From Sulfuricurvum sp. (GTDB lineage: Bacteria; Campylobacterota; Campylobacteria; Campylobacterales; Sulfurimonadaceae): 64,000 bases of DNA. How positions within the stretch are numbered: the first letter of the stretch is position 1; each line of letters begins with the position of its first letter. A program made the translations under genes and the position numbers. Below are positions 1 through 15,148 of this stretch, piece after piece. The DNA lies in NCBI GenBank assembly GCA_028714915.1, contig JAQTLL010000002.1:186001-250000 (forward strand), read 5' to 3'. The notes beneath the pieces were generated by a model that was given only the letters and a program-made list of their open reading frames with translations, did not search any database and was not told the DNA's origin.

Positions 1-24
1 TGCGCTTGAGAGGATGATGGCGTT

Positions 25-840
25 ATGATCGAACAATTTATCCGTGAAGTATTAGCTGAAGATGTGGGGCGTGGAGATTTGTATGCTCGTGTATCTGTAC
101 CTGTGGATGCCAGTGCGAAGATTATTGCCAAAAGTGATGGTGTATTTGCGGGGGAAGAGTATCTGCGTGTACTGGCTGGACTGGAAAAGTTTGAGATTTA
201 TTGGCATAAACGTGACGGGGAACGATTTGTGAGAGGGGAAGTGCTGTTAGGTCTTAGCGGGAATTCCCATACCCTCCTTCGTATCGAGCGGACATTGCTC
301 AATATGCTGTTGCATGCAAGTTCTATTGCAACTTTGACGCGACAATATGTCGATCTTGTAGCTCCCTACGGGACGAAACTGCTTGATACCCGAAAAACTC
401 GTCCGATGTTGCGCAATTTTGAGAAATATGCCACCCGTATCGGCGGAGCGACCAATCATCGGATGGGGCTGGATGATGCGCTGATGCTCAAAGATACCCA
501 TCTCAAAACGATTGAAAATTTAGAGCAGTTTATGGAAGAAGCGCGTGCCAAAATCCCTTTTACAGCGAAGATAGAGATTGAAGCCGAGACGATAGAGATG
601 GCAAAGAAGGCGATGGAAGTGGGGGCGGATATTGTGATGTGTGACAATATGACTCCTGAAGCATTGCGTGAAGTGGTGGAGTATAAATGGATCCATCATT
701 CAAGTGTTCTGCTTGAAGCCAGCGGAAATATTTCACTCAGCACCATTGAAAGCTATGCCAAAACGGGTGTGGATGCCATCAGTACAGGCTCCCTCATTCA
801 TCAGGCCAACTGGATTGATATGTCGATGAAAATGGACTAA
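25..840 (+). CDS. nadC: Nicotinate-nucleotide pyrophosphorylase (quinolinate phosphoribosyltransferase)
   Basis: The protein converts quinolinate and PRPP to nicotinate mononucleotide, the step that commits quinolinate to NAD synthesis in the cytosol. Its 271 residues are close to the family length of about 280. The PRPP and quinolinate site is visible as DTRKT at 121-125, GGATNHR at 140-146 and LKD at 155-157, followed by an acidic IEIEAE strand and MCDNM in the barrel domain. NadA and NadB normally accompany it and probably lie upstream of the window. FlhB starts 3 nt after its stop, so the two are likely co-transcribed. The related ModD family was considered, but the motif spacing fits NadC better. 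Confidence 0.92.
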   Translation: MIEQFIREVLAEDVGRGDLYARVSVPVDASAKIIAKSDGVFAGEEYLRVLAGLEKFEIYWHKRDGERFVRGEVLLGLSGNSHTLLRIERTLLNMLLHASSIATLTRQYVDLVAPYGTKLLDTRKTRPMLRNFEKYATRIGGATNHRMGLDDALMLKDTHLKTIENLEQFMEEARAKIPFTAKIEIEAETIEMAKKAMEVGADIVMCDNMTPEALREVVEYKWIHHSSVLLEASGNISLSTIESYAKTGVDAISTGSLIHQANWIDMSMKMD

Positions 841-843
841 GCA

Positions 844-1905
844 GTGGCAGACGACCAAGAAAAGACAGAAGAACCCACCGCCAAGAAGCTCGAAGATGCC
901 AGAGAAGAGGGGAATGTCCCCCGAAGTCAGGATACGGCGGGTGTCATTGTTTTATTTGTCGCTATTTTGGCACTTGTAATGCTGCTGCCCTTTATTGCAG
1001 AACATCTTTTGGGATTGGTCCGGTATTATTTTTCACTTATGAATCATCCCTTGGAAGAGACAAATCTCATTGACATGGCATTTGTAACAATGAAAGAGTT
1101 TTTGATTATGGCGTTGCCCTTTAGTCTTATTATTGCGATTGCCGGGGTAGCGGGTACGGTTTCACAGATAGGGTTTAATTTTACGACGAAGCCATTAACC
1201 CCTAATTTTTCGAAACTAGACCCCATTGCGGGACTCAAAAATATGCTTAGTATGCAAAAAGTACTCGAAGCGCTCAAAATTACCTTTAAATCCTTTGTTG
1301 CTATGGGAATTGGATTCCTCTTTTTTTGGTCATACATAAAAGAACTTCCGACGGTTGCCTTATTTGGTCTGTGGGAGCAGATGGGATGGTTTGAAGAGAA
1401 GGCGATTGTTTTGGCTTCGGTGATGCTGATTATTCTCTTTTTCTTTGCCATGATTGATTTGTTTCTTACTCGAAAACACTATTTTGATAAGCTCAAGATG
1501 TCATTGCAAGAGGTCAAGGATGAGATGAAAAATATGGAAGGGGATCCCCATATTAAAGCAAAAATCCGCCAAATCCAAATGCAGGCAGCACGTAAGAGGA
1601 TGATGTCAGCCGTACCTAATGCCGATGTCGTCATCACCAATCCGACCCATTATGCAGTGGCAATCAAATACGATGAGACGAAACATAACGCTCCTGTAGT
1701 GGTAGCAAAAGGGGTGGATAATATCGCCATTCAAATCAAAAAAATTGCTCGTGAAAATGGAGTCCATTTAGTTCAAAATCCCCCTTTGGCACGATCACTG
1801 TATGCTGAAGTAGAGATAGACCACCCTATCCCTGAGTTACTGTTCGCCGCAGTCGCGGAAGTATTGGCGTATGTCTATAAAATGGGTAAAAAGAGTAAGG
1901 GCTAA
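844..1905 (+). CDS. flhB: Flagellar export switch protein FlhB
   Basis: This is an inner-membrane component of the flagellar type III export apparatus that switches substrate specificity from rod/hook to filament. The 353-residue protein has a charged N-terminus (EKTEEPTAKK), four hydrophobic membrane segments between about residues 30 and 215, and a cytoplasmic domain with the autocleavage site NPTH, N at residue 266. The start is GTG, 3 nt after the nadC stop, with no strong ribosome binding site, which suggests translational coupling to nadC. Nothing is missing compared with the family. The next gene is on the opposite strand, so the nadC-flhB transcript ends near 1910. Confidence 0.97.
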   Translation: MADDQEKTEEPTAKKLEDAREEGNVPRSQDTAGVIVLFVAILALVMLLPFIAEHLLGLVRYYFSLMNHPLEETNLIDMAFVTMKEFLIMALPFSLIIAIAGVAGTVSQIGFNFTTKPLTPNFSKLDPIAGLKNMLSMQKVLEALKITFKSFVAMGIGFLFFWSYIKELPTVALFGLWEQMGWFEEKAIVLASVMLIILFFFAMIDLFLTRKHYFDKLKMSLQEVKDEMKNMEGDPHIKAKIRQIQMQAARKRMMSAVPNADVVITNPTHYAVAIKYDETKHNAPVVVAKGVDNIAIQIKKIARENGVHLVQNPPLARSLYAEVEIDHPIPELLFAAVAEVLAYVYKMGKKSKG

Positions 1906-1914
1906 AGAAGAGAT

Positions 1915-2856
1915 TTATGAACCTAGAGTTAGGTAGAGATACTCAAAAATTTCACCGCTTTTAGCAAGAATGTCACTATCATCTAATCCATTAGCACGAA
2001 TGGCAGTCAGTATGAGTTTTATCCCTTGGGCTTCAGGTGTGATGTATTTGTCATCATTGAGATCAAGTGTGTGAATAATTTTAGCGATAGCATTCATCGT
2101 ATTATCTTCAATACCGAATGATTTTAACAAAACCTCAAAAGTACATAAGTCGCCAATATGGGTAAAATCCGCTTGGTTCATGTCGTAAGTGACAATAGCA
2201 GACTTTGACGTATCGATCGTATTGGCAAAGATGAATTCTGCAGCAGGATCGATACATTTGCGAATAAGCCAAGCTGATGCCATCCGATCTACAAACGGAC
2301 GGGTGCGTGTCTGCCATTGTTTGCCTTGATAATTAGCACTATTTTGAAGATGAATTATTGGGGTAGAGGAAGATGCTGTCGATTCAAGAGCAGATTCTAA
2401 TCTATTTTGAGCGTTTTGAATTGCTTTTTGGAGTGTTTTACCTTTTTGAGAGTGAAAAAAATCGATTGCATAAAGTGCATCAAAGTCACGGATAATTTTT
2501 TTCAAGTTTTGTTGTGTTTCATATTCTTGGTTTAAATCAATATTAAATGTTCTAATTTTTTCCTCTACGGCGTTGTACGATGATTCTGCTTGTGCTTGGA
2601 AAAGTGCAATCACATTGGCATTATCCATCATCTCCAGTTTTTCAATGGTAACAAACTGCATCTCTCCGCCAAGGGTTTTGATCTCTTGGGAGAGCCATTG
2701 AAAAAATTCGTATTGGTCATCACTGAAGGGGAGAATATGAACACCGTCTTTGAGCGACAGCGTCCCCTCTTTTTGAAGCCTTCTATAAATCCGTAAACGG
2801 TTCCGTTCAGGCTTGGAAGGCATTGAATAAAACATTAATATCCAAGTAGAAATCAT
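1915..2856 (-). CDS. chrB: ChrB-like chromate resistance protein
   Basis: The 313-residue protein has the two-part ChrB architecture. The N-terminal part (about 1-105) carries the basic patch PERNRLRIYRRL and an ILPFSD strand. A coiled middle follows, and the C-terminal ChrB domain starts at about 186 with RPFVDRMASAWLIRK. ChrB proteins are known from chromate-resistance loci, where they act with the ChrA efflux pump as regulator or enzyme-like accessory. No ChrA is present here. The gene is last in a minus-strand operon, 9 nt after the octahaem cytochrome stop, so a role tied to periplasmic oxyanion reduction is inferred. The true substrate is unknown. A second in-frame ATG lies at residue 9. 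Confidence 0.8.
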   Translation of the reverse strand: MISTWILMFYSMPSKPERNRLRIYRRLQKEGTLSLKDGVHILPFSDDQYEFFQWLSQEIKTLGGEMQFVTIEKLEMMDNANVIALFQAQAESSYNAVEEKIRTFNIDLNQEYETQQNLKKIIRDFDALYAIDFFHSQKGKTLQKAIQNAQNRLESALESTASSSTPIIHLQNSANYQGKQWQTRTRPFVDRMASAWLIRKCIDPAAEFIFANTIDTSKSAIVTYDMNQADFTHIGDLCTFEVLLKSFGIEDNTMNAIAKIIHTLDLNDDKYITPEAQGIKLILTAIRANGLDDSDILAKSGEIFEYLYLTLGS

Positions 2857-2865
2857 ATATTCACT

Positions 2866-4179
2866 TTATTTAGTCCACTGGCTCATGCCCCATTTGGACA
2901 AAGATTGATCTGCCCAGTCAAGATTTTTATCTTTATGGCAATTTGTACACGCATTGGGAACATTATACTTTCGTGTCTCTTCAGGAGTGATAAATCCGAA
3001 AATATGGGTACGTACCGTTAGCGGTGATTCTTTCAGATGTTTACCCGTTTTCGGCATATGACATTCGATACAGCTTGATCCTGTAGACCCTGCTTTATGA
3101 TGGGTATGTGCTTCAATCGAGCTTTGGTGCGGTCCGATCGGTGAGCCTAACGAATGACACTTCATACACGCAGCATCTCCGACTGGCTTAGTGGTTGTGT
3201 TGTTAAGCTGATGCGGATCATGGCAATTCACACAGGTGATACCGTGTTTGTACATCATTGACTTCACAAATTCATTTCCCTGCGTTCGATTCTTTTTGCC
3301 GACACCGTTGCCGTAGAATTCATCGGTTTCATTACCGTCAAAGGGTGCTTTGGTTTTATAAATACTTAACGGTTTGCCGGGTTCATATCCTTGTGGATAA
3401 TCGCGAATATCTCCGAACAAAGAGTGCATATCAGTTGTCTCAAGGCGTTTGTCCCGATTACGCATATGGCATTGAAGACATACTTCAGTGGCACGTTTGG
3501 GATCGGCGTTTGTCGCTTTATAAATTTTATCCGCATCGTCTGGTTTTTTTACATGTTCACTTCCCGGACCATGACACGCTTCGCATGCTATTGCCGGTTC
3601 AGTCCGTTTTCCTTGGCTCATAACTCCGGTGAAGTGACATCCGTCACAAGTTTTGGATGTTCCAACTTTACTGTTGTTTTCTTCATATCCATCGTGATAC
3701 CAATCTTTGGTTGTACTGTAAGGCTGCCATTTTTTAAGCTGTGTATTCCATTGATAATTCCCTACTACAAAATCTTGTGTCCCGTTGATCTCTTTTGCCA
3801 TCATGTAGCGTTGTTTGAACTTACCGCCGATGGTATAAACGATATCTTCTTTTTTGAAGTTAGCCTCGCTTGGAAGTTTCATAAAATCAGCCAATATGGC
3901 AGAGGGGTCTTTGCTCACATTTTGAATCATCTTGGAATGATACGAGTGCTTCCATTGATCAAATTGATTTTCGTGACACTTCTTGCATTGTTGTGAACCT
4001 ACATAAAGAGCCTTTTTTTGCCCAATAGGCTGAATGTCAGCGTGTTCATCCACCTGATCTTTACTCAGTTGCTCAATAAACGGGATGATTTTTCCGTGTT
4101 TTTGAACCAAAGAGTACCCAAATGCACCCAACCCTAGTATGGATACTGCAAGCAGTGTCCAAATAATTTTTTGTCGCAT
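2866..4179 (-). CDS. Octahaem c-type cytochrome, membrane-anchored, periplasmic
   Basis: The 437-residue protein has one N-terminal hydrophobic segment (about 5-22, signal anchor or uncleaved signal) and eight CXXCH haem-binding motifs with Cys at 65, 178, 199, 234, 316, 338, 370 and 411. It therefore binds eight covalent c haems and faces the periplasm. Cytochrome c554-type and octahaem oxidoreductase families share this style of widely spaced motifs. Whether it is an enzyme or an electron conduit cannot be decided from sequence, because all sites are plain CXXCH and no CXXCK variant is seen. It lies between a predicted outer-membrane protein and a ChrB homologue, which suggests oxidation or reduction of a metal or sulfur oxyanion. 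Confidence 0.88.
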   Translation of the reverse strand: MRQKIIWTLLAVSILGLGAFGYSLVQKHGKIIPFIEQLSKDQVDEHADIQPIGQKKALYVGSQQCKKCHENQFDQWKHSYHSKMIQNVSKDPSAILADFMKLPSEANFKKEDIVYTIGGKFKQRYMMAKEINGTQDFVVGNYQWNTQLKKWQPYSTTKDWYHDGYEENNSKVGTSKTCDGCHFTGVMSQGKRTEPAIACEACHGPGSEHVKKPDDADKIYKATNADPKRATEVCLQCHMRNRDKRLETTDMHSLFGDIRDYPQGYEPGKPLSIYKTKAPFDGNETDEFYGNGVGKKNRTQGNEFVKSMMYKHGITCVNCHDPHQLNNTTTKPVGDAACMKCHSLGSPIGPHQSSIEAHTHHKAGSTGSSCIECHMPKTGKHLKESPLTVRTHIFGFITPEETRKYNVPNACTNCHKDKNLDWADQSLSKWGMSQWTK

Positions 4180-4190
4180 AATTTTTTCCT

Positions 4191-4931
4191 TTAATAACGT
4201 AATTGTAGACCCGCATAAAAGAGGGCAGCTTTTGAGGACTCTGGTGATATAAGTTCACGACCACTAGAGAATAAAAAACTAGTATAGGATGAGATCCAAT
4301 ACTTAAGACCGCCATTGGCAATCATCGTCGTATTCCCGCCACTGAGAGCAGAAGCGTTATGCAGTTCAGCTAAGAGTTCTAAATGCTCAAGCACTTCATA
4401 TCCGACCACAGCTCCGTATTCAATCTGATCACGGCTTCCTTTGATAGAGAGATAACCGAATTCACCCGTTACCGCCAATGTACCTATTTTTTTACTGATT
4501 TCGATAGGTAAAAAGAGTGCTTGATCGATGTCAGCAATACCATTATGATAATTTTTCTTGATTGGTACGAAGGTATATTGAGGATAGGTTGAAATAAGAA
4601 TATTACCGGCAGAATTTTCATAAAAGCGCCATTTTACCCCTATCTTAGTATTTCCTATCCCTTGGGTATGAGATTCACCGTCACGGAATAAAGAGACATA
4701 CGAACTTTCAACTTTAAGCTGTATGTTCTCTCCGACCCCGTAATTAATATCGATGATAGGCTGTTCATATCGCAAGGTGTTAGCTTGGATGTCGCCCTTG
4801 TAGGCAACATTGACTTCCAAATTGCCATTACCCGGTGTTTCGGGGTCATCCGTTATTATCGGAGGGCCGCCGGCAGCGTATATGCGTCCGATTAGCAATA
4901 CTGTAAAGGGAAGGGCTCGGTTTATAAGCAT
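4191..4931 (-). CDS. Outer-membrane beta-barrel protein of the Phenol_MetA_deg/transporter-like family
   Basis: The 246-residue protein has a signal peptide ending near Ala-Ala-Gly at about 19-21. The mature N-terminus is GGPPIITDDPETPG, a hallmark of a broad family of uncharacterised outer-membrane barrels often annotated as MetA-pathway phenol degradation or transporter. Alternating hydrophobic strands and a C-terminal GLQLRY fit a barrel. It is first in the minus-strand operon with the octahaem cytochrome (11-nt gap) and chrB. The ATG is followed upstream by in-frame stops, and no clear Shine-Dalgarno site is seen. The 103-bp repeat begins only 9 bases before it, so its leader may have been altered by recombination. 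Confidence 0.7.
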   Translation of the reverse strand: MLINRALPFTVLLIGRIYAAGGPPIITDDPETPGNGNLEVNVAYKGDIQANTLRYEQPIIDINYGVGENIQLKVESSYVSLFRDGESHTQGIGNTKIGVKWRFYENSAGNILISTYPQYTFVPIKKNYHNGIADIDQALFLPIEISKKIGTLAVTGEFGYLSIKGSRDQIEYGAVVGYEVLEHLELLAELHNASALSGGNTTMIANGGLKYWISSYTSFLFSSGRELISPESSKAALFYAGLQLRY

Positions 4932-4939
4932 ATACGACC

Positions 4940-5042
4940 ATTTTTATTAAGAATGTAACAGTTAGATAAAAATGTATCAACTATTACAAAAATATTATAG
5001 TATAAAAACTTTTATGAGCTTAAGGAAATACGTTAAAATATT
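4940..5042. repeat. 103-bp direct repeat, copy 1
   Basis: This stretch is repeated in the same orientation at 5806-5908, exactly 866 bp downstream, with one difference (G at 4974, A at 5840). Read on the minus strand it contains a TATAAT-like -10 within TTATACTATAATA and would serve as promoter and leader for the outer-membrane protein/cytochrome/chrB operon. It contains the interrupted palindrome at 4955-4987. No gene is encoded in it. Its right edge touches the decayed arsR region. Confidence 0.95.
4955..4987. promoter_or_regulatory. Interrupted palindrome inside repeat copy 1 (operator or RNA hairpin)
   Basis: The left arm GTAACAGTTAGATA mirrors the right arm TATCAACTATTAC, with one bulged A and one C/T difference, around an AT-rich spacer. 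Read from the minus strand it lies just downstream of the probable -10, in the leader of the cytochrome operon. It may be a regulator site or a leader hairpin. The regulator is unknown. Confidence 0.5.
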
Positions 5043-5072
5043 TTATGATTAGCCATGTTATAGTTTAGTCTC

Positions 5073-5230
5073 TCATTGTACTGTAAGCTTATCATCAAAA
5101 AATAGTTCTCGGTTGTTGTCAAAATTTTATCGATAGAGCAAGTATTACCCCCTTCAGTAAATATATTTTTAAAAAGTAAAAACCGCGTTTCATTACTGAG
5201 TGTCTTAAATATTTTGAGTTTTTGTTTCAT
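5073..5230 (-). pseudogene. Remnant of an ArsR/SmtB-family repressor with an internal deletion
   Basis: The minus-strand reading from the ATG at 5230 gives an ArsR-type N-terminus with the family motif KTLSNETRFLLF at about residues 9-20. It then leaves the family pattern after about 40 residues. In another frame the same DNA gives a tail NRELFFDDKLTVQ ending at a TGA at 5073-5075, which looks like an ArsR C-terminus. The simplest reading is loss of the central winged-helix part, which joined the two ends out of frame. If translated as is, it ends in the 103-bp repeat at 5033 after 65 residues. It stands divergent to the rhodanese gene, as ArsR regulators often do, and is probably non-functional. 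Confidence 0.65.
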
Positions 5231-5247
5231 ATCGAGTATGTGAATCC

Positions 5248-5276
5248 TTGACAGATTAGTTTTATTATTATACTAT
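5248..5276 (+). promoter_or_regulatory. Probable promoter of the rhodanese gene
   Basis: A perfect -35 hexamer TTGACA at 5248-5253 is followed by TACTAT at 5271-5276 with a 17-bp spacer. An overlapping TATACT at 5269-5274 would give a 15-bp spacer. A consensus -35 is unusual for this phylum, whose housekeeping promoters normally lack one. This may fit a segment acquired from elsewhere. Confidence 0.55.
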
Positions 5277-5285
5277 ATAAGGATA

Positions 5286-5301
5286 TTAGCTTTTTAGCTA
5301 A
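5286..5301. promoter_or_regulatory. Palindrome TTAGCT-TTTT-AGCTAA, candidate operator
   Basis: This is a perfect 6-bp inverted repeat with a 4-T spacer, lying just downstream of the probable rhodanese promoter. It would block transcription if bound, so it is a candidate site for the (now broken) divergent ArsR-type regulator. This is inference from position and symmetry only. Confidence 0.4.
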
Positions 5302-5324
5302 AATCATAAATACAAGGAATGAAG

Positions 5325-5786
5325 ATGAAAAAGATTCAAATAGTTCTACTGGTTGCAAGCTTGCTCGTAGGCTCATCAGTAATGGCGGGGCATCCAGAAA
5401 GTGAAAAATTGATCGATATTGCGAGACAAGAGGCAGGAGAGATGACTCCTAAGCAGCTTAAAGAGATGCTGGATGCTGAAAAAAAAGTAATTGTAATGGA
5501 TGTACGCGAAGAGAATCAACGTGCAGAGGGTGAAATATACGCTTCAAATATGATGGCGATGACACGCGGAAATTTAGAATTTGAAGTGCTCAATAAAATT
5601 AAAGATAAAAATGTTGTGATTGTCACCTATTGTCGTGGTGGAAGCCGTGGGGCATTGGCGGCACAAACACTCAGAAAGCTTGGATACGCCAAGGCTACTA
5701 CTCTTAAAGGTGGTCTTAAAGGATGGGCTGAAGAGGGATACCCGATTGAGACAGGGCTAGGCGTTACCCATTTGACCAAAGAATAA
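5325..5786 (+). CDS. Periplasmic single-domain rhodanese (sulfurtransferase)
   Basis: The 153-residue protein has a cleavable signal peptide (MKKIQIVLLVASLLVG, cut near AMAG-type VMAG at about 21) and one rhodanese domain. The active-site loop YCRGGSRG has the catalytic Cys at residue 103, and the domain ends with GLKGWAEEGYP. It should bind a persulfide and transfer sulfane sulfur in the periplasm. The ATG at 5325 is preferred over the one at 5319, because AAGGA at 5314-5318 is 6 nt from the former and only touches the latter. It lies in the 866-bp unit flanked by the 103-bp repeats, divergent from an arsR remnant. A role in sulfide or polysulfide handling is likely. Confidence 0.9.
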   Translation: MKKIQIVLLVASLLVGSSVMAGHPESEKLIDIARQEAGEMTPKQLKEMLDAEKKVIVMDVREENQRAEGEIYASNMMAMTRGNLEFEVLNKIKDKNVVIVTYCRGGSRGALAAQTLRKLGYAKATTLKGGLKGWAEEGYPIETGLGVTHLTKE

Positions 5787-5796
5787 TAAGGAGATT

Positions 5797-5835
5797 ATGA
5801 GAGAAATTTTTATTAAGAATGTAACAGTTAGATAA
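5797..5835 (+). pseudogene. Start of a gene cut off by repeat copy 2
   Basis: Ten bases after the rhodanese stop, a good ribosome binding site (AAGGAG at 5789-5794) precedes an ATG at 5797. The frame runs MREIFIKNVTVR and stops. The 103-bp repeat begins at 5806, inside the fourth codon. This looks like the first codons of the next gene in the original rhodanese operon, truncated at the recombination junction. The identity of the lost gene cannot be told from four native codons. Confidence 0.5.
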
Positions 5836-5908
5836 AAATATATCAACTATTACAAAAATATTATAGTATAAAAACTTTTATGAGCTTAAGGAAATACGTT
5901 AAAATATT
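5806..5908. repeat. 103-bp direct repeat, copy 2
   Basis: This is identical to 4940-5042 except at one base and in the same orientation. Here it lies 73 bp upstream of the porin start and supplies its promoter region, with an AT-rich TATTATAGTATAAA core that is usable on both strands. It includes the palindrome GTAACAGTTAGATA...TATCAACTATTAC at 5821-5853. Outside the repeat the two flanks are unrelated, so the junction is sharp at both ends. Confidence 0.95.
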
Positions 5909-5918
5909 ATAATAAAAT

Positions 5919-5946
5919 ATCGTTATGTAATAAATGATATAGCGAT
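5919..5946. promoter_or_regulatory. Inverted repeat in the porin leader
   Basis: ATCGTTATGT at 5919-5928 and ATATAGCGAT at 5937-5946 form a 10-bp stem with two G-U pairs as RNA and an 8-nt loop. It lies about 35 nt upstream of the porin ATG and is absent from the copy 1 flank. It may be a leader hairpin or a protein site. Confidence 0.35.
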
Positions 5947-5981
5947 TAAAAAGGTTTTTAATATATCTTAAGGAAGTTAAA

Positions 5982-7523
5982 ATGAAATTAGTGAATCTCA
6001 GTATTGCGGCATCAGTCGTATGTTTGTTGGCTGTTTCCGCTCAAGCGGCAGAAGATTTGGCAAGTGCGTTCAAAGAGGGGAAGCTCGACGGACGTATCCG
6101 ACTGCACTACATCGGAACCGATTGGGATCATAATGATGATTGGCTTAAAGGTTATAACAATACTGTTCTTAACAAGCCAAATGAAGACAGTCATGGTGCT
6201 GCTATAGGGGGAAGTTTAATTTATACAACAGCTCCTTTATACGGAGTAAGGGCCGGAGCGGGATTTTATACCACACACAGTTTAGGAATTCTTACGAATA
6301 CTGATAACGGTACGACAACGGGCAATGCAAAAAATACGACTGGATCAGATCTTTTTGCTCGTGGTCCTGGTGCAGCAACTAATTATGGTACGGGATACAG
6401 TGTTTTAGGACAAGCGTATCTCCAATACAATATTGCTAAATCTTCGGTCAAAGGGGGAAGATTCTTGATGAGCAATCCGTTCATCTCTCCCAATGACACG
6501 AAAATGATCCCGCTTGCCGTTGAAGGTGCCAGTTTTGTTTCCAATGATATTGCAGATACCACGATTCAGCTTGACTATGCTGATAAAATTAAAGAGCGGG
6601 GTATGACCTATTTTGGGTCGATGGCCGATACGGGCGATACACCTGATGCGATTAAAAACTATTACAATACCCACTATACAGCTGCCGGCGTTTCAAGCTT
6701 TGGACAACATTCAGCACCGGGCGTTGGAATTCTTGGTGTCAAAAATAAATCAATTAAAGACCTTGACCTTCAAGGATGGTACATGACATGGCCCGATATC
6801 ATCGATCAAGCGATGGCAGAAGCTAATTACAAAGTTAAAGCCGGAGATGTCGGTTTGGCTTTCGGCGCCCGCTATATGCAGCAAATAGACCACGGAGCTG
6901 GAGATATTATCAAACCAATGGATGGTTCGTCGGTTTATTCTAGTAAAGCTGTCACGGCTACGTCACCGACTGGAGGGACTTCTACAGTGCGATTAAAAGG
7001 AGATAATGATAACAGCGTTGATACCTATATGTACGCACTCCGTGCTATTGTCAATTACAAAGCGGCGCGATTTATGATAGCATATTCTCATACAGCCAGC
7101 GGTGGGGATTTGATCGCTCCGTGGCGCGCGTTTCCAACCGATGGGTATACGCGTTCGATGACGATCACGGACTGGAATGCGAACACCAAGGCCTATAAAG
7201 GTCAGCTTGATTATGACTTTAACAGTATGGTTACAGGCTTGAGTGCTTTGGTCAGTTATAGCTACTATAATCGTGACCCGTCAAAAGTGGGATATCAAGG
7301 TCAAACAGACCGTTATTATGGAAACGGGGATACGCATCAATGGAATGCAGATGTTAAATATGCTGTAGCTGGTATCAAAGGGTTGGAATTGAAACTTCGA
7401 ACGATGATTCAAAAAAATGATGTTGTAACAAATATTACAGGTAATACTGGTGGAGCTTCAGAAGGGGTTGGAATTGATACTTCTAATAAAGAGATGCGTG
7501 TTGAGATCAACTACCTATTCTAA
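5982..7523 (+). CDS. OprD-like outer-membrane porin
   Basis: The 513-residue protein has a clear signal peptide ending AQA at about residue 22, then AEDLASAFKEGKLDGRIRLHYI. That start and the C-terminal aromatic strand MRVEINYLF are typical of Campylobacterota members of the OprD/Opr porin family. The body is rich in alternating Tyr/Gly strands as expected for an 18-strand barrel. It would admit small solutes across the outer membrane. The start has AAGGA 8 nt upstream. The 103-bp repeat lies just upstream, and the cytochrome/ChrB operon has the same repeat in the opposite sense. Shared control with that operon is therefore likely. The substrate is not deducible. Confidence 0.85.
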   Translation: MKLVNLSIAASVVCLLAVSAQAAEDLASAFKEGKLDGRIRLHYIGTDWDHNDDWLKGYNNTVLNKPNEDSHGAAIGGSLIYTTAPLYGVRAGAGFYTTHSLGILTNTDNGTTTGNAKNTTGSDLFARGPGAATNYGTGYSVLGQAYLQYNIAKSSVKGGRFLMSNPFISPNDTKMIPLAVEGASFVSNDIADTTIQLDYADKIKERGMTYFGSMADTGDTPDAIKNYYNTHYTAAGVSSFGQHSAPGVGILGVKNKSIKDLDLQGWYMTWPDIIDQAMAEANYKVKAGDVGLAFGARYMQQIDHGAGDIIKPMDGSSVYSSKAVTATSPTGGTSTVRLKGDNDNSVDTYMYALRAIVNYKAARFMIAYSHTASGGDLIAPWRAFPTDGYTRSMTITDWNANTKAYKGQLDYDFNSMVTGLSALVSYSYYNRDPSKVGYQGQTDRYYGNGDTHQWNADVKYAVAGIKGLELKLRTMIQKNDVVTNITGNTGGASEGVGIDTSNKEMRVEINYLF

Positions 7524-7550
7524 AGGATAAAGGGATAATGAAATAGGAAA

Positions 7551-7577
7551 GCGATTATAGAAAGAGGGTATAATCGC
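7551..7577. promoter_or_regulatory. Perfect palindrome containing TATAAT on both strands; nrnA promoter or porin terminator
   Basis: GCGATTATA at 7551-7559 and TATAATCGC at 7569-7577 are perfect inverted repeats around a 9-nt spacer. The right arm carries the -10 hexamer TATAAT at 7569-7574, well placed for the TTG start of nrnA at 7604. The same DNA could form a terminator hairpin followed by a short T-run (7582-7588) for the porin transcript. Confidence 0.55.
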
Positions 7578-7603
7578 GAATATTTTTTGCGAAGAGGATC
7601 CCA

Positions 7604-8563
7604 TTGCAAGCGCTTATCGATTCTGCCCGCCACATCGTCCTTATTGCGCATGAGCATCCTGATGCAGATTCATTGGGGAGTGCGTGTGCATTTTACTCCT
7701 ACCTTTTACGATCCAAGACAAAAGTGACCCTTTTTTGTGTCACCTCTTCTTTGGATCAAAATCTCTCTTTTCTTCCATGGTTTGACGAAGTAACCGATAA
7801 ATTTCCCTCTAATACGGATTTGGTCATTAGCTTTGACTGTGGTAGTTTTGGGCGATTGGGGATTGACTACAGCGGTGAACTTATTAATTTTGATCATCAT
7901 ATCAGTAATGAATTGTATGGGACCCATAATTGTATTGATACCCAAGCTCTGAGCACGACACAGATAGTTTATGAGTGGTTCGTTACCAAGACAATCAAAA
8001 TCAATGGTAAAATGGCGAATGCGCTTTATGCAGGGTTGCTTGACGATACCCACTGTTTTAGTGATTCAAGTTGTACCAATGCAGTATTTGAGATGGCACA
8101 TTCGTTAATACAAGCAGGTGCTAATCATGCTTTGTGTGTGGAGGCGTTGTTTCACAGTCACTCTTTGGCTTCTTTTAGATTGAAATCGGAGATGTTAAAG
8201 CGGATGAAAATACTTCATGATGGGCGCGTGGCAGTGTTTGAAGTGGATCAAGCCCTTTTTGCCAGCTCAGGCGCTCTCTTGCGGGACTGTAAAGCAGTTG
8301 TGGATAAAGCATTGAGCCTTAAAACGGTTCAAATTGCACTTTTAGTGGTAGAGCTAAAGAGCGGCGGTGTTAAGGTTTCATTGCGAAGTGATGGAGTTAT
8401 CAATGCTGCTGAACTATTGCACTGTTATGGCGGAGGCGGACATAAAATCCGTGCAGGAGCTCGAATTGCAGAGTGTTCGCGTAAGTCAGTAATTAAAAAT
8501 TTAATGGATTCAATAAAAATAGCACTTGAGCTTACGGCACGAGTAAACATAGCGTTAGCGTAG
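7604..8563 (+). CDS. nrnA: DHH-family phosphoesterase, NrnA-like (nanoRNase / pAp phosphatase)
   Basis: The cytosolic 319-residue enzyme has the DHH domain motifs AHEHPDADSLGSA near the N-terminus, SFDCGSFGRL, NFDHHISNELYG and DDTHC. It ends with a DHHA1 domain containing CYGGGGHKIRAGA. Such proteins hydrolyse 2-5-nt RNAs and 3'-phosphoadenosine 5'-phosphate. The start codon is TTG at 7604, preceded by GAGGA 5-9 nt upstream, and no ATG fits better. The last 12 codons and the TAG stop lie inside the first copy of the two-hairpin element (8528-8595), so the native C-terminus may have been replaced by it. Confidence 0.85.
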   Translation: MQALIDSARHIVLIAHEHPDADSLGSACAFYSYLLRSKTKVTLFCVTSSLDQNLSFLPWFDEVTDKFPSNTDLVISFDCGSFGRLGIDYSGELINFDHHISNELYGTHNCIDTQALSTTQIVYEWFVTKTIKINGKMANALYAGLLDDTHCFSDSSCTNAVFEMAHSLIQAGANHALCVEALFHSHSLASFRLKSEMLKRMKILHDGRVAVFEVDQALFASSGALLRDCKAVVDKALSLKTVQIALLVVELKSGGVKVSLRSDGVINAAELLHCYGGGGHKIRAGARIAECSRKSVIKNLMDSIKIALELTARVNIALA

Positions 8564-8595
8564 TTTGTTGGGACGAGTTCCAATAAGCGTTTAAA
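8528..8595 (+). repeat. Two-hairpin repeated element, copy 1
   Basis: This 68-nt element is shared with 12284-12353 and 16970-17035. The first part matches copy 3 at about 27 of 36 positions and carries a short stem (TTAC/GTAA). A spacer TAGCGTTAGCGTAG holds the nrnA stop codon. The second hairpin is TTGTTGG-GACGAGTT-CCAATAA, followed by GCGTTTAAA. Its 3' end is 27 nt upstream of the M23 peptidase start. It may act as terminator, attenuator or RNA-processing site. Confidence 0.7.
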
Positions 8596-8622
8596 ATAAT
8601 AAAATATTACGGAGGTATTGGT

Positions 8623-9993
8623 GTGAGAAGACGAGGAAATGGTTCGGGTGCAGTTGGATTGATTTTGGGTGCGGTAGCGATTGGTGCCATTGGATTTATG
8701 GCATTTTCGCCACTTTTTGAGCGAGAAGATCCAAAATTAACGATCAGCCGAGATGGTTACTGGAATTTTCAAGACCCAATCAATGTAGACGTTGAAGATG
8801 TAAGCGGTTTGAAATCTTTTACGGCTACTATCGTAGGTCCACATGATGAGTGGGTGGTAGTAGATGAAGCAACTCCTTCCAAAGAGACCAAGAAAACTTT
8901 TCAAATTCTCCCCCCTAAAGGTAAACGAAACGCTGAAGCGCAAAGTGTTGTGTTGAAAATCAAAGCAACCGATAACAGTCTTTGGGGATTGTTTATGGGT
9001 AATACCATAAAAAAAGAGGTTACGTTAGTAATCGACCAGCGTCGTCCGATCCTTTCCGTCATCGCAAGCTCGTATAAAATTCAAAAGGGCGGTTCTGCCA
9101 TCGTAGTTTTTAAAGCGGAAGATGATCAGATGGAAAGCTTGAAAATTGAAACAACTATCGGAAAAACATTTAGTGCCCAACCTTTTTATAAAAAAGGATA
9201 TTATGCCTCATTGCTCGCATGGCCTGTTCAAAGCGAGAGCTTTAGTGCAACAGTGGTCGCTCGTGATAAGGCAGGAAATGAGACGCGAGGAAGTGTCCCT
9301 TTACGACTTAAAGATCATGCATATAAAGTCTCTAAGATTGAACTTAGTGACGCGTTTTTGGATGGCAAGATTGCTGAACTGGCAAGTGTGTATGAGCAAA
9401 CTACAGGGGTAAATGACCGACTGGAGCAATTTCGTATTATCAACGAAAAAGTACGTGCGGATAATGAAAAAGTGATTCATACCATTACTTCTAAAGTTTC
9501 CAATGCGATGATTGGTGATTTTAGACCTGTCCCTTTTTATCCTTTGGTAAACGGTCAGAAAGTAGCCGATTTCGGAGATCACCGTATTTACAGCTACAAA
9601 GGTCAAGCAAATATTTCTCAAGCCTACCATATGGGTCTGGATTTGGCGAGTGTTCATTTGGGGGCTATTACCAGCTCAAACGGGGGCAAGGTTGTTTTCT
9701 CGGCACCTAATGGTATTTATGGAAATCTTCCGATTATCGATCATGGCTTTGGTCTGTACACGTTGTATGGGCACTGTTCTGAAGTACATGTTCATGAAAA
9801 GGATAATACTCAAGCTGGACAAGAGATCGCTAAAACGGGGATGAGCGGGTATGCTATGGGAGATCATCTCCATTTTGGTATCTTGGTTCAGGGGATCGAA
9901 GTACGTCCGGAAGAGTGGATGGACAGCAAATGGATTGCAGATAATATTACCAGTGTGATTGATACAGCTAAAATGTTTATCGATCAACAGTAA
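8623..9993 (+). CDS. M23 (LytM-type) zinc metallopeptidase, membrane-anchored
   Basis: The 456-residue protein has one N-terminal membrane segment (GLILGAVAIGAIGFMAF, about 10-26), a long beta-rich periplasmic region, and a C-terminal M23 domain. The zinc site is seen as YHMGLD (H..GLD) and DHLHFG, with YGHCSEV between. It should cleave peptide cross-links in peptidoglycan. Relatives at this locus, directly before lpxC, are known in Campylobacter. Cell-shape peptidases of this class set curvature in the phylum, so a shape role is possible but not shown. The start is GTG with a strong GGAGGT 6 nt upstream. An internal Ala-Ser-Asn insert is not evident and all motifs are intact. Confidence 0.88.
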   Translation: MRRRGNGSGAVGLILGAVAIGAIGFMAFSPLFEREDPKLTISRDGYWNFQDPINVDVEDVSGLKSFTATIVGPHDEWVVVDEATPSKETKKTFQILPPKGKRNAEAQSVVLKIKATDNSLWGLFMGNTIKKEVTLVIDQRRPILSVIASSYKIQKGGSAIVVFKAEDDQMESLKIETTIGKTFSAQPFYKKGYYASLLAWPVQSESFSATVVARDKAGNETRGSVPLRLKDHAYKVSKIELSDAFLDGKIAELASVYEQTTGVNDRLEQFRIINEKVRADNEKVIHTITSKVSNAMIGDFRPVPFYPLVNGQKVADFGDHRIYSYKGQANISQAYHMGLDLASVHLGAITSSNGGKVVFSAPNGIYGNLPIIDHGFGLYTLYGHCSEVHVHEKDNTQAGQEIAKTGMSGYAMGDHLHFGILVQGIEVRPEEWMDSKWIADNITSVIDTAKMFIDQQ

Positions 9994-10000
9994 AAACAGT

Positions 10001-10006
10001 TATAAT
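10001..10006 (+). promoter_or_regulatory. -10 element TATAAT upstream of lpxC
   Basis: TATAAT lies 36 nt before the lpxC ATG in the short gap after the M23 gene, preceded by an AAAAACAGT tract. Promoters of this phylum rely mainly on the -10 box, so lpxC and the genes after it probably have their own start of transcription here. Confidence 0.6.
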
Positions 10007-10041
10007 GGGAAATAATTCTCTAGCATGAGGAAGCAGTAGTT

Positions 10042-10929
10042 ATGAAACGACAAACAACAATCGGTAAAAAAGTTGAATTGGTAGGAATCGGATTGCACAA
10101 AGGTATTCCGGTCCACTTGCGTCTTGAACCGATGGAGAGCAATAGCGGAATTGTCTTTTTTAGAAGCGATGCGGGTGTCTCGATTCCATTGACACCCGAG
10201 AGCGTGGTGGATACCAAAATGGCGACTGTGATTGGTAAAGACGGGGTATTTATCTCCACGATTGAACACATGCTCTCTGCTATTTATGCTTATGGGATTG
10301 ATAATCTTCGTGTTATTGTGGATGCGGATGAGGTTCCTGTCATGGATGGTTCTTCGATGAGCTTCTGTATGCTTTTGGATGAGGCAGGGCTTGTGGAGCT
10401 CGATGCCCCAAAGAAAATTATGCGGATAAAAAAAGAGGTTGAAGTACGTGAGGGGGAGAAGTACGTCAAGCTCTCTCCTTCCAATGATCTTAGTTATGAC
10501 TTTACGATTAAATTTTCTCATCCCGTGATCGATAAACAAAGCTATGTTTTGAAATTTACCAAAGAAAACTACAAAAAAGAGATTGCGAGAGCCCGTACTT
10601 TTGGTTTTGTTCATGAGGTACAGTATTTGCGTTCAAAAGGGCTTGCTTTGGGCGGAAGTTTGGAAAATGCGGTGGTTTTGGACGATAAAAAAGTCCTTAA
10701 TCCCGAAGGATTACGTTTTACCGATGAGTTTGTCCGCCATAAGATTCTCGATGCTATCGGAGATATGTCGTTAATCGGAATGAACTTTATCGGGAATTAT
10801 GAGGCATTTGCGGGAAGTCATGATTTGAATCATAAGCTGACGATGGAATTGTTAAAAGATCCTGCGAACTATGAGATCGTTGAGCTGGTTACCGCAGAGT
10901 CAAAAGAGTTGGCAAAAGCGTATGCATGA
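10042..10929 (+). CDS. lpxC: UDP-3-O-acyl-N-acetylglucosamine deacetylase
   Basis: This is the zinc enzyme of the committed step of lipid A synthesis in the cytosol. The 295-residue protein starts [20 protein letters not shown], as in the family, and shows the zinc ligand in TIEHMLSA and the two ligands in [10 protein letters not shown]. The MDGSS substrate loop and catalytic His in GSHDLNHKL are also present. The ATG has AGGAAG about 10 nt upstream. The TsaB-like gene overlaps its end by 8 nt. The order lpxC, TsaB-like, thrB, ylxR, infB is the one seen in Helicobacter and Campylobacter. Confidence 0.97.
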
Positions 10930-11377
10930 TGCGGTTGTCATTGCACTGGGGAGTCCTGTTTTAGTCGGTGTTTACGATGAGTCGGGGAAACTGGTCGAAG
11001 CTATTAAGAGTGAGAAGGTGGGGTCGGATGCGTTAAGTGAAATTTTCGATGATTTCTTGGAGCGCTATTCGTTTCGTCATTTGGTGTATGCGAATGGACC
11101 GGGGAGTTTTATGGGGATAAAAGTGACCTATCTTTTTTTAAAAACACTCAGTATCATCAAAAAAATCCCCCTCTTGGCAATAGATGGGTTCTTTTTCAAT
11201 GAAAATCACCCCATCAAAGCAGTAGGAAAGCTCTATTTCGTTAAAAATAGTACTACGATTTCGACGACGGCGCTGGAACAGCCAGTTTTAAAAGGCTTTG
11301 AGCTTCCAAACGTCATAAATGTCGAAAATTTTAATACCGATAACGCCCCTTATTATGGAATTGATGCGGTCGGATAA
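10922..11377 (+). CDS. Short TsaB/YeaZ-like protein
   Basis: The 151-residue protein has the N-terminal ASKHA fold seen in TsaB, with [15 protein letters not shown] near the start and the family motif [18 protein letters not shown] in the middle. TsaB is the partner of TsaD in the complex that makes t6A37 in tRNAs. It is much shorter than enterobacterial TsaB (about 230 residues). Short forms at this locus are usual in the phylum, so it is probably the native TsaB rather than a fragment. The ATG at 10922 overlaps the lpxC stop. An upstream in-frame start at 10871 would lie inside lpxC and adds no family sequence. Confidence 0.65.
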
Positions 11378-11386
11378 GGAACAAGA

Positions 11387-12268
11387 GTGTTTGTAAGTGT
11401 ACCTGCAACCAGTGCCAACTTAGGGCCCGGTTTTGACTCATTAGGATTAGCGGTTGATTTGCGTAACCGTGTTGAGCTCGTCCCTTCACGATTTTTTACG
11501 GTTTCAATCAAAGGGGAGGGGGAGAATAATCCTCGTCTCAAAGGGAACAATCTGTTTGTGAGTATTTTTAACGAGCATTATCGCCGTTTGACTCAGAAGC
11601 GCCAAAATTTTAAATTTACGTTTTACAACCAAATACCTATGTCGCGCGGACTTGGGAGTTCATCTGCCGTTATCGTCAGTGCGATAAGTTGTGCGCATGA
11701 AGCGGCGGGGGTAAAAGTCTCTAAACGGCGTATTCTCAACTATGCATTGGTCTATGAAACTCATCCTGATAACATCACTCCTGCGGTAATGGGGGGGTTT
11801 AATTCGGCAATGGTGGAGAAGCAAAAAGTATTTTCGCAACAAAAACATATGCCCGATTATCTTAAAGCCGTTGTGGTTATCCCTAATAAGCCAATTTCTA
11901 CAGCAAAATCACGAACAACTCTTCCTCGATCGTATAGCAAAGAAAATGCGGTATTTAATCTCTCACATACGGCAGTTACGGTTGGGGCATTTTATAATGA
12001 AGATTGGGAGATGCTGCGTCTCTCCACACAAGACCGTTTTCATCAGAGATTGCGGATGAAAATGTTGCCTGAGTTGTTTGATGTACAACGAATTGCCTAT
12101 GAAAATGGTGCGCTTATGAGTACGTTATCGGGAAGCGGATCGACTTTTTTCAATATGGTGTATGACCAAGATGCGTCATCAATGGCCGATAAATTTATCA
12201 ATGCGTTTCCGGATTTTGAAGTAAAAATATTAAACTTTGATAACGATGGACTAGTTGTCGAACGATAA
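11387..12268 (+). CDS. thrB: Homoserine kinase
   Basis: This is a GHMP-family kinase that phosphorylates homoserine in threonine synthesis. The 293-residue protein begins [18 protein letters not shown] and has the ATP-binding motif [17 protein letters not shown], plus the C-terminal LSGSGSTFF glycine loop. The start is GTG with AAGGA 6 nt upstream. It follows the TsaB-like gene by 9 nt in the same operon. After its stop comes the third copy of the two-hairpin element, so the transcript may end or be processed there before ylxR. Confidence 0.95.
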
Positions 12269-12283
12269 GTAAAAGCAAAGCGC

Positions 12284-12353
12284 GGGCTTACTGCCGAAGT
12301 AAACCCAGTGTTAACGTAGTATAAGGGGCTTTGCTCCTTATACGTTAAGTAAA
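12284..12353 (+). repeat. Two-hairpin repeated element, copy 3
   Basis: Hairpin 1 is GGGCTTAC-TGCCGAA-GTAAACCC with one mismatch. After AGTGTTAACGTA comes hairpin 2, GTATAAGG/CCTTATAC at 12319-12326 and 12336-12343, extended by a G-U and a G-C pair around a CTTTG loop. CGTTAAGTAAA follows. It fills the gap between thrB and ylxR and ends 17 nt before the ylxR start. The loop of hairpin 2 differs from that of copies 1 and 2. Confidence 0.7.
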
Positions 12354-12369
12354 GAAAGAATTTGGTATA

Positions 12370-12624
12370 ATGGCGCAAAATAGTAGTCATCCCGTACGCA
12401 TGTGTATTGTTTGTCGTGAACGATTCGAGCAATCGACATTAATACGACTCCAATGCCGTGAAGGCAATTTAGAATCTTACGTCGGGATGGGGCGAAGTTT
12501 TTATCTGTGCTTCGCGTGCACAGAGCATAAAAAAACTTCGGGGCAACTCGCCCGCCACTGCAAGAGCAATACCCCCGTACAGCTCATGAATCGTTTAAAG
12601 GAGATCGTCGTTAATGATGGATAA
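12370..12624 (+). CDS. ylxR: YlxR-family (DUF448) small RNA-binding-like protein
   Basis: The 84-residue protein shows the YlxR signature [13 protein letters not shown] near the start and [13 protein letters not shown] in the middle, with the four Cys that often bind a metal in this family. YlxR genes are usually linked to infB and nusA. The known members affect RNase P or transcription in other bacteria, but the role here is not established. The ATG at 12370 is the only start that keeps the conserved PVRMCIVC. It sits inside a TATAATG sequence, so that TATAAT cannot be the promoter of this start. The end overlaps infB by 11 nt. Confidence 0.85.
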
Positions 12625-15148
12625 AGTAAGAGTTCATGAAATAGCCAAGGAACTTGGAATCAATTCTAAAGAGGTGGTGGATAAAGCGGCCATTATGGGA
12701 TTGAATGTAAAAACTGCTTCAAGTACAGTATCAATGGAAGAAGCTGAAAAAATTATGAACTACATCATGAGTGGTGCGGCGCATGAGTCGAGTGCTCCAA
12801 AAGTCTCAACCTACGAAGCGCCTGTTGAAGCACCTGCTATCGTTGCTGCTGTTGCTGCTATCGTTGTTCCTGAAACGTCAACTGTGCCTGACGTGGCTCC
12901 TGTTACAGAAGCAACTCAAGAGATTGCACCAGAAATTGAAATTCCAAAACGTTCAGGTTTGAAAATTGTTAAAAAAGCACGCCCTGTTGAAGCGGTTGCC
13001 GCACCTGTTCGTTATGAAAATATCAACGTCTCACAATATGGTAAAGTAAGTGCGGAAGTACAGCGTGAGCTGGAAGCAAAAAAAGCAAAAAAACTTCATA
13101 GCAATGCCCCTACGCAAAGAAAAGAACAAGGGACTCGCCTTGATATTTTTGATGGCGGCATGTCTGATATTTCGATGGATTATGAAGATGAGCAAGTCGT
13201 ATTGCTTGATTTTAGTGATTTAAATGCGAAGTTACCGCCAGAAGAAGAGCAAAAGCCAAAAGAGAAAAAACCTATTGGGCGAAATGCAGGAAAAAAACAA
13301 GGGGCTAATCGTGGTAAACCGCGTCAAGTTTCGCGTGAATCCCGTAAAAAATATACCAAAGATGCCAAAGAAGATGAAGTTATTACGCACGTGGAAATTC
13401 CTGAAGATGTCCGTGTCTATGAATTCGCTGAAAAAGTAGGACAAAGTATTTCTGCGGTTATTAAAGTCCTTTTTGACCTTGGAATGATGGTTACTAAAAA
13501 TGACTTTTTGGGCAAAGATGAAATCGAAATTTTGGCGAGCGAGTTTGGTGTAGAAGTGACCACCATCGATCCGAAAGACGCGTTTAATCTTGAGACTGCA
13601 TACGATGAAGAGCACGAGGACAGTGAAGGTTCGGTAGAACGTCCTCCGGTTATCACTATTATGGGGCACGTTGACCATGGTAAAACGTCTCTTCTTGATG
13701 CGATTCGTAATGCTAAAGTAGCACACGGTGAAGCAGGTGGGATTACGCAACACATCGGTGCGTATTCGGTAGAGCAAAAAGGCAAACTGATTACGTTCTT
13801 GGATACTCCGGGACACGAAGCCTTTAGTGCGATGCGTTCACGCGGTGCACAACTCACGGATATTATTGTTATCGTTGTAGCAGCAGACGATGGTGTCAAG
13901 CCTCAAACCCGTGAATCGGTTCAGCATGCAAAAGATGCCAAGGTTCCTGTCATCGTTGCGGTAAATAAAATGGATAAACCGGGAGCTAATCCTGATATGG
14001 TTAAAGCGCAAATGGCTGAGCTTGGATTAAATCCTACTGAGTGGGGCGGAGATGTCGAGTTTGTAGGAGTTTCTGCAAAAGCAATGACAGGTATTGATGA
14101 GCTTTTAGAAGCTATTTTACTTCAATCCGAAGTAATGGAGCTTAAAGCAAATCCAACTGTAATGGCAAAAGCTGTGGTTGTTGAGAGTACGCTTGAAAAA
14201 GGGCGTGGACCGGTTGCTACGGTAATCGTTCAAAACGGAACACTTCACGTCGGCGACAACATTGTTTGTGGTGGTGCATATGGACGTGTTCGTGCATTGA
14301 TTAATGATCGTAAAGCACAGCTTAAAGAGATTGGACCAAGCCAAACGGCTGTGGTGGTTGGTTTGAGCGACGTACCTCCATCGGGTGAAGTTATGATGGC
14401 AATGGAGAGCGATCGTGAAGCGCGTGAAGTAGCACAAAAACGTGCTGAGTATGATCGTCACCGTGAACTTTCATTGAGTACTAAAGCATCCTTTGATGAC
14501 TTGACATCGTTGATTGCCGAGGGTCGTATTAAAGCCCTTAAGGTGGTTCTTAAAACGGACGTTCACGGTTCTCTAGAAGCGATTAAATCGGCTCTTGCAG
14601 ACTTGCGGAATGAAGAAGTAAAAGTTGAAGTTATCTCCAGCGGTGTGGGTGGAATTACTGAAAATGACGTTGCACTGGTAAACAATAGTGAAAACTGTGT
14701 CCTATTAGGGTTCAATGTCCGACCAACAGGTAATGTCAATGCCATGGCAAAACAAATGAGTGTAGAGATCAAAACCTACTCTATTATTTATCAGCTTATC
14801 GACGATGTCAAATTACTGCTCGGTGGTATGATGGCACCGCAATATCGTGAAGAAAATACCGGTCAAGCAGAAGTTCGTGATACATTCCCAATGCCAAAAG
14901 GGTCAGGAACCATCGCAGGATGTGTAGTTGTTGACGGCAAGCTTGTCCGTGGAGGTATGGTACGTGTTATCCGTGACGGTGTTGTTATCCACGAAGGTGA
15001 TTTGACCTCTCTAAGACGTTTCAAAGACGATGTGAAAGAGGTTGGTAAAGGATTTGATTGTGGTGTTGTTCTAAACGGCTATACCGATGTTAAAGTGGGT
15101 GACGTTGTTGAAACCTTCAAGAAAATTGAGAAAAAAGTAACCCTGTGA
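12614..15148 (+). CDS. infB: Translation initiation factor IF-2
   Basis: This GTPase brings fMet-tRNA to the ribosome. The 844-residue protein has an IF2_N domain ([21 protein letters not shown]), an Ala/Val/Pro/Glu-rich linker at about 60-120, a second charged linker rich in Lys, then the G domain with [14 protein letters not shown] from about 351, DTPGHEAF and NKMDKP. Domains II-IV follow with the usual [10 protein letters not shown]. Two ATGs in a row are possible starts (12614, 12617), with AAAGGAGA about 10 nt upstream. The gene overlaps ylxR and is followed by rbfA with a GTGA overlap, so the three are translationally coupled. Confidence 0.98.

Follow-up and report, generated by a model that had tools for sequence, protein, structure and literature searches.

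A rhodanese-bearing cassette fragment between two copies of a probable operon control region in Sulfuricurvum sp.

The window, i.e., the whole 64,000-nucleotide stretch of Sulfuricurvum DNA analysed here, contains two 103-bp direct repeats (R1 and R2), between which lies an intact rhodanese gene. The repeat is neither an attachment site nor a transposon end; it most likely represents the promoter and operator of the adjacent leftward operon (4931 to 1915), which encodes an outer membrane protein-like (OMP-like) protein, a multiheme cytochrome, and a ChrB-like protein. By its gene content, the DNA between the two copies derives from a Sulfuricurvum cassette, of which it is a remnant; in that cassette, DUF3147-arsR and DsrE-rhodanese-DsrE-DsbD are arranged divergently. 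With moderate confidence, we consider that a microhomology-type (illegitimate) event placed this cassette fragment at the control region and, in doing so, duplicated the promoter. Three features had been overlooked in the first-pass annotation of this DNA: the probable identity of the repeat as the control region of the neighbouring operon, the ends of the insert inside two identifiable genes, and the roughly 7 bp (AATATTT) which the join at R1 has in common with donor-type sequence. The scar is unusually readable and well preserved, yet it is of a known kind of event and not a new system. The features are listed in Table 1.

Table 1. Positions of the features in the window
Feature	Position	Strand	Basis or remark
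chrB-like gene (ChrB_N and ChrB_C), last in operon	1915..2856	-	PF09828, E=4e-39; PF20229, E=3e-8
Multiheme c-type cytochrome gene	2866..4179	-	Pfam Cytochrome_C554/c3/c7-type matches; the homologue in another genus of the family is 81% identical and likewise adjoins OMP and chrB
OMP-like gene, family unassigned, first gene of operon	4191..4931	-	Outer-membrane location and signal peptide assigned by visual inspection
R1 (repeat copy 1), most likely the native promoter/operator of the OMP-cytochrome-chrB operon	4940..5042	-	Adjoins the OMP start codon on its upstream side; upstream homology in G405
Inverted repeat TGTAATAGTT-N15-AACTGTTACA in R1, putative operator	4954..4988	-	2 such sites in the genome
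TATAAT -10 box in R1	4994-4999	-	Spotted by eye
DUF3147 gene start remnant	5036..5061	-	97% over 30 bp to L111 (G015); DUF3147 name from pSULKU02 annotation
arsR-family regulator gene with internal deletion	5074..5230	-	5' part (5126-5230) fused to the last 52 bases (5074-5125)
Rhodanese promoter TTGACA-N17-TACTAT and palindrome TTAGCTTTTTAGCTAA (putative ArsR-family operator)	5248..5301	+	Promoter-like sequence
Rhodanese gene, intact; product has a signal peptide and the active-site loop CRGGSR	5319..5786	+	PF00581, E=5e-16
Truncated start ATGAGAGAA of the gene after the rhodanese gene	5797..5805	+	dsrE begins here in many relatives
R2 (repeat copy 2), probable lone promoter copy without operon	5806..5908	-	Points left, antisense to the rhodanese gene; contains an inverted repeat (5820-5854) and a -10 box (5860-5865)
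ModE-type operator ATCGTTATGTA-N6-GATATAGCGAT, putative control site of the porin gene	5919..5946	.	20/22 positions to an assumed ModE-type consensus, best in the 64-kb window
OprD-family porin gene	5982..7523	+	PF03573, E=4e-16

The repeat pair and the adjoining operon

The description of the repeats in the first-pass annotation proved accurate. R1 and R2 lie in direct orientation at a spacing of 866 bp and are identical in 102 of 103 bases, the sole mismatch being G at 4974 and A at 5840; their edges are sharp, with flanking bases that differ beyond both ends of each copy. No exact repeat of at least 20 bp was found elsewhere in the 64-kb window, the core pattern of the repeat gave 0 matches in 100 shuffles, and a scan of the whole genome (2.1 Mb; a draft assembly of 21 contigs, 91% complete) recovered the two known copies only. 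A draft of this kind could contain a chimeric join made via a collapsed 103-bp repeat, but such an artefact is very improbable here, as the copies have distinct and sensible flanks and the assembly offers neither a third location nor an alternative flank for the repeat; moreover, the one-base difference between them argues against a simple assembly duplication.

The earlier statement that a transposase and terminal inverted repeats are lacking was likewise borne out: no inverted repeats bracketing the 866-bp unit were found, and no obvious transposase or integrase near the unit appears in the ORF list, of which part of the unnamed entries was run against family libraries. Since tRNA genes are missing from positions 1 to 14000 of the window and the repeat occurs in two copies only, a transposon, MITE, or tRNA-linked island was ruled out; terminal inverted repeats, a transposase, and multicopy ends, the hallmarks of transposons, IS elements, and MITEs, were not seen at the repeat pair. 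A structured RNA was rejected as well, there being no Rfam match within the repeat up to E=0.1.

That the repeat most likely serves the operon as promoter and operator is suggested by homology upstream of a related operon and by a shared inverted repeat near the TATAAT box. Specifically, in G405, a genome from another genus of the family whose OMP, cytochrome, and ChrB proteins are 49, 81, and 67% identical to those of the window (L156/L157/L253), the DNA just upstream of the OMP gene aligns with the repeat over 61 bp (78.7%, E=4e-6). Both repeat copies contain the inverted repeat TGTAATAGTT-N15-AACTGTTACA, which in the host genome is confined to them and sits just downstream of the TATAAT box in the direction of the operon. 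In L157, its counterpart, likewise spaced by 15 bp, is located upstream of the OMP gene; another stands upstream of the cytochrome gene in L161, where both arms are perfect across 11 bp. The motif marks a subgroup: it is weak in L158 and differently spaced in L159, and most of the 80 cytochrome loci of the wider set lack it in their upstream DNA. A simple promoter consensus scan gave no excess over shuffles; the promoter activity of the repeat is presumed from its sequence. The inverted repeat is better explained as a putative operator than as an integron attC-type site. The locus also offers a candidate operator, restricted to one operon, for the OMP-multiheme cytochrome-ChrB operon of Sulfurimonadaceae, through which the regulator of this operon becomes testable.

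The operon itself is patchily distributed. Its gene order recurs in L156/L157, L158, and L159, and related sets with one or two cytochrome copies exist in other genera (L156-L163), one of them (L163) in a record labelled Planctomycetota. The OMP gene, whose product gave no match in Pfam or NCBIfam, is present in 1 of 41 Sulfuricurvum-type genomes: it occurs once in the host, and the 40 remaining genomes lack it.

On the right side of the pair, the ModE-type site starts 10 bp past R2. The repeat was therefore rejected as the porin's own promoter: the ModE-type operator of the porin stands right of R2, and in related loci the resemblance of the porin upstream DNA to the window begins only near position 5953. 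Consequently, R2 is probably not the main control element of the porin gene. Porin orthologues of 65 to 69% identity were found in G003, G007, G008, G012, and G019, and in relatives they adjoin modA/ModE genes. The host ModE gene is located on contig C3 (L264) and has no such porin beside it, so that a porin of the molybdate-linked group is found here far from the host mod locus with its own near-consensus putative ModE operator. As a separate observation, L249 (G008, contig C4) carries two ModE-type sites at about 4649-4790, ahead of an unidentified ORF.

In the window, the operon, the repeat-flanked unit, and the porin gene lie between flhB and a DHH-family gene. The two adjoin one another in G063 (L142/L247) and are separated by a porin gene in G018 (L244); in the window, the gap (1905-7604) holds about 5.7 kb of mixed modules and thus looks like a landing site for insertions.

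The DNA between the repeats

As had been proposed, a broken arsR gene and an intact gene for a periplasmic rhodanese lie between the repeats. The two arsR parts align with separated stretches of the intact arsR genes of relatives, and a promoter with palindrome similar to that ahead of the rhodanese gene is present upstream of the rhodanese genes of the family and in the arsR-dsrE gap of the host's own cassette on contig C5. The start codon of the DUF3147 remnant has decayed to ATA, and the last 7 bp of this remnant (5036-5042) coincide with the end of R1 in the microhomology AATATTT. At the other edge, the insert cuts the gene after the rhodanese gene at its start; judging by relatives, many of which have dsrE there, this gene is presumably dsrE. 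The insert retains, as remnants, the layout of the cassette minus the first dsrE: arsR and the rhodanese gene diverge, DUF3147 follows arsR, and the presumed dsrE follows the rhodanese gene.

This cassette is widespread in the genus and is plasmid-borne in S. kujiense (pSULKU02, NC_014755.1, 53476-59209), where DUF3147 and an HTH regulator gene precede DsrE-rhodanese-DsrE-DsbD-DUF255-OprD porin and where a recombinase gene and IS21 genes are found in the surroundings. The host's own cassette comprises arsR, dsrE, and dsbD and has neither the rhodanese gene nor the first dsrE, which have been cleanly lost from it (L081, C5 of host genome G000, 5040-5960). The same clean loss of both genes was seen in a second cassette in G010 (contig C19, L080). 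An origin of the insert as a recent copy of the C5 cassette was ruled out, given an identity of only 76% and the missing rhodanese gene on C5. Comparison with relatives, which the first-pass annotation had proposed as a check, showed that, within the genus, the order repeat-arsR-rhodanese-repeat is confined to the host genome.

Since the C5 cassette lacks the gene, the rhodanese gene of the window is the only copy of its orthologue in the genome; of the 41 genus genomes, 22 contain an orthologue (E up to 1e-30). The dN/dS values against relatives range from 0.07 to 0.10, which is consistent with a retained function, although much of the divergence built up in other lineages. The closest relatives of the rhodanese are those of G006 and G032 (87 and 86% identity, support 90 and 91), whereas the arsR, DsrE, and DsbD of the host C5 cassette are 88 to 95% identical to those of G002, G007, and G012. 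Horizontal acquisition of the rhodanese gene by transfer within the genus is likely rather than established, because grouping of the rhodanese with G002, G007, and G012 was not rejected in the AU test (p=0.168). In L085 and L086 (G006 and G032), the dsrE gene right after the rhodanese gene is decayed.

Origin of the arrangement

As we infer the mechanism, the order of events, and the effect on expression, the locus would initially have consisted of chrB-cytochrome-OMP with a single control region, followed by the ModE-controlled porin gene. A fragment of the mobile Sulfuricurvum cassette would then have entered at the control region independently of RecA, either by template switching during repair or by fragment capture at a staggered break, with entry and exit points offset by 103 bp; owing to this offset, a copy of the control region would have remained at either end of the insert. 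Both routes, the former with two offset template switches, would yield the product in a single event. Afterwards, R1 would still serve the operon, and R2 would be a promoter-only copy pointing antisense into the rhodanese gene. The latter would have come through undamaged, together with its own promoter and operator, while arsR suffered its internal deletion and the first dsrE was lost.

One line of evidence for this insertion route is the left join. The transition from R1 to the insert falls in AATATTT, which is common to the repeat and to the DUF3147 gene starts of relatives (those in G016 and G019 were compared); these 7 bp of microhomology were scored at this one junction and on the sequences of relatives, of which G016 has one base different there. 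A stretch of about 7 bp shared by the R1 join and donor-type sequence would point to illegitimate joining rather than to a Campbell-type crossover.

The latter had been put forward in the first-pass annotation and survives as the second-best reading, tentative and clearly less probable than the microhomology-type insertion. According to it, the repeat was already part of the incoming DNA, for instance of a segment DUF3147 fragment-R-OMP derived from a related strain. One end would have recombined with the repeat or operon in residence; joining of the other would have been illegitimate or due to the same crossover. The near identity and direct orientation of the copies would be expected from such a process, homologous recombination with a repeat-bearing donor would leave an identical product, and there is a documented bacterial precedent for illegitimate recombination facilitated by homology during DNA uptake (PMC3240628). 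The cassette is, moreover, borne on a plasmid in S. kujiense, and a DUF3147-type gene follows chrB in L159, so that operon and cassette genes can be neighbours. However, a circle in which the promoter was already fused to the cassette would be required, and no such arrangement was found: the repeat adjoins the cassette in no genome searched and, like the OMP gene, is present in none of the 40 other genomes of the genus, the PLSDB plasmids having been queried with the rhodanese and cytochrome proteins only. In addition, the right-hand end base shared by both copies would have to be a coincidence.

An operon duplication with subsequent deletion was kept as a further rival and is unlikely. In this case, a second OMP-cytochrome-chrB operon between the rhodanese gene and R2 would have been deleted, leaving its promoter behind. 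A deletion join could indeed look like the start of R2, which lies within about 9 bp of the expected OMP start and abuts the truncated next gene, but beside R2 there is no coding remnant of OMP, cytochrome, or chrB, the genome has a single OMP gene, and more events are required.

As to consequences, excision or amplification of the 866-bp unit would be possible from its layout. That R2 drives an antisense RNA across the rhodanese gene into the operon, so that the regulator of the operon, perhaps ChrB, controls the rhodanese level, or that excision and amplification of the unit operate reversibly appears quite unlikely. From the locus one can read how a gene that has dropped out of its native cassette may persist at a new position with no mobile element involved, a whole probable promoter/operator having been duplicated around the insert.

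Comparison with known systems

The pSULKU02 cassette shares with the insert its gene order, its orientation, and the style of promoter and palindrome. In contrast to the plasmid cassette, the insert is a remnant, with arsR deleted internally, the first dsrE lost, and both DUF3147 and the gene after the rhodanese gene cut at their starts.

Among recombination events, illegitimate (microhomology-mediated or templated) insertions come close to the present case in that a direct copy of the target bounds the insert, a short stretch is shared at a junction (here as judged on relatives), and no transposase is involved. Here, by contrast, the duplicated target is a probable promoter/operator, and the proposed mechanism is deduced from the product and from one junction. 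Homology-facilitated illegitimate recombination resembles it in the size of the foreign fragment, about 1 kb, and in having at least one illegitimate end (PMC3240628), whereas at this locus no donor with homology to the repeat was found.

Composite transposons and pairs of MITEs also place direct copies around a gene. The present pair differs from both in having no terminal inverted repeats, no visible transposase, and only two copies, each of which corresponds to what is most likely a native promoter region. The pair also cautions against taking long direct repeats on either side of a gene for integration sites as a matter of course.
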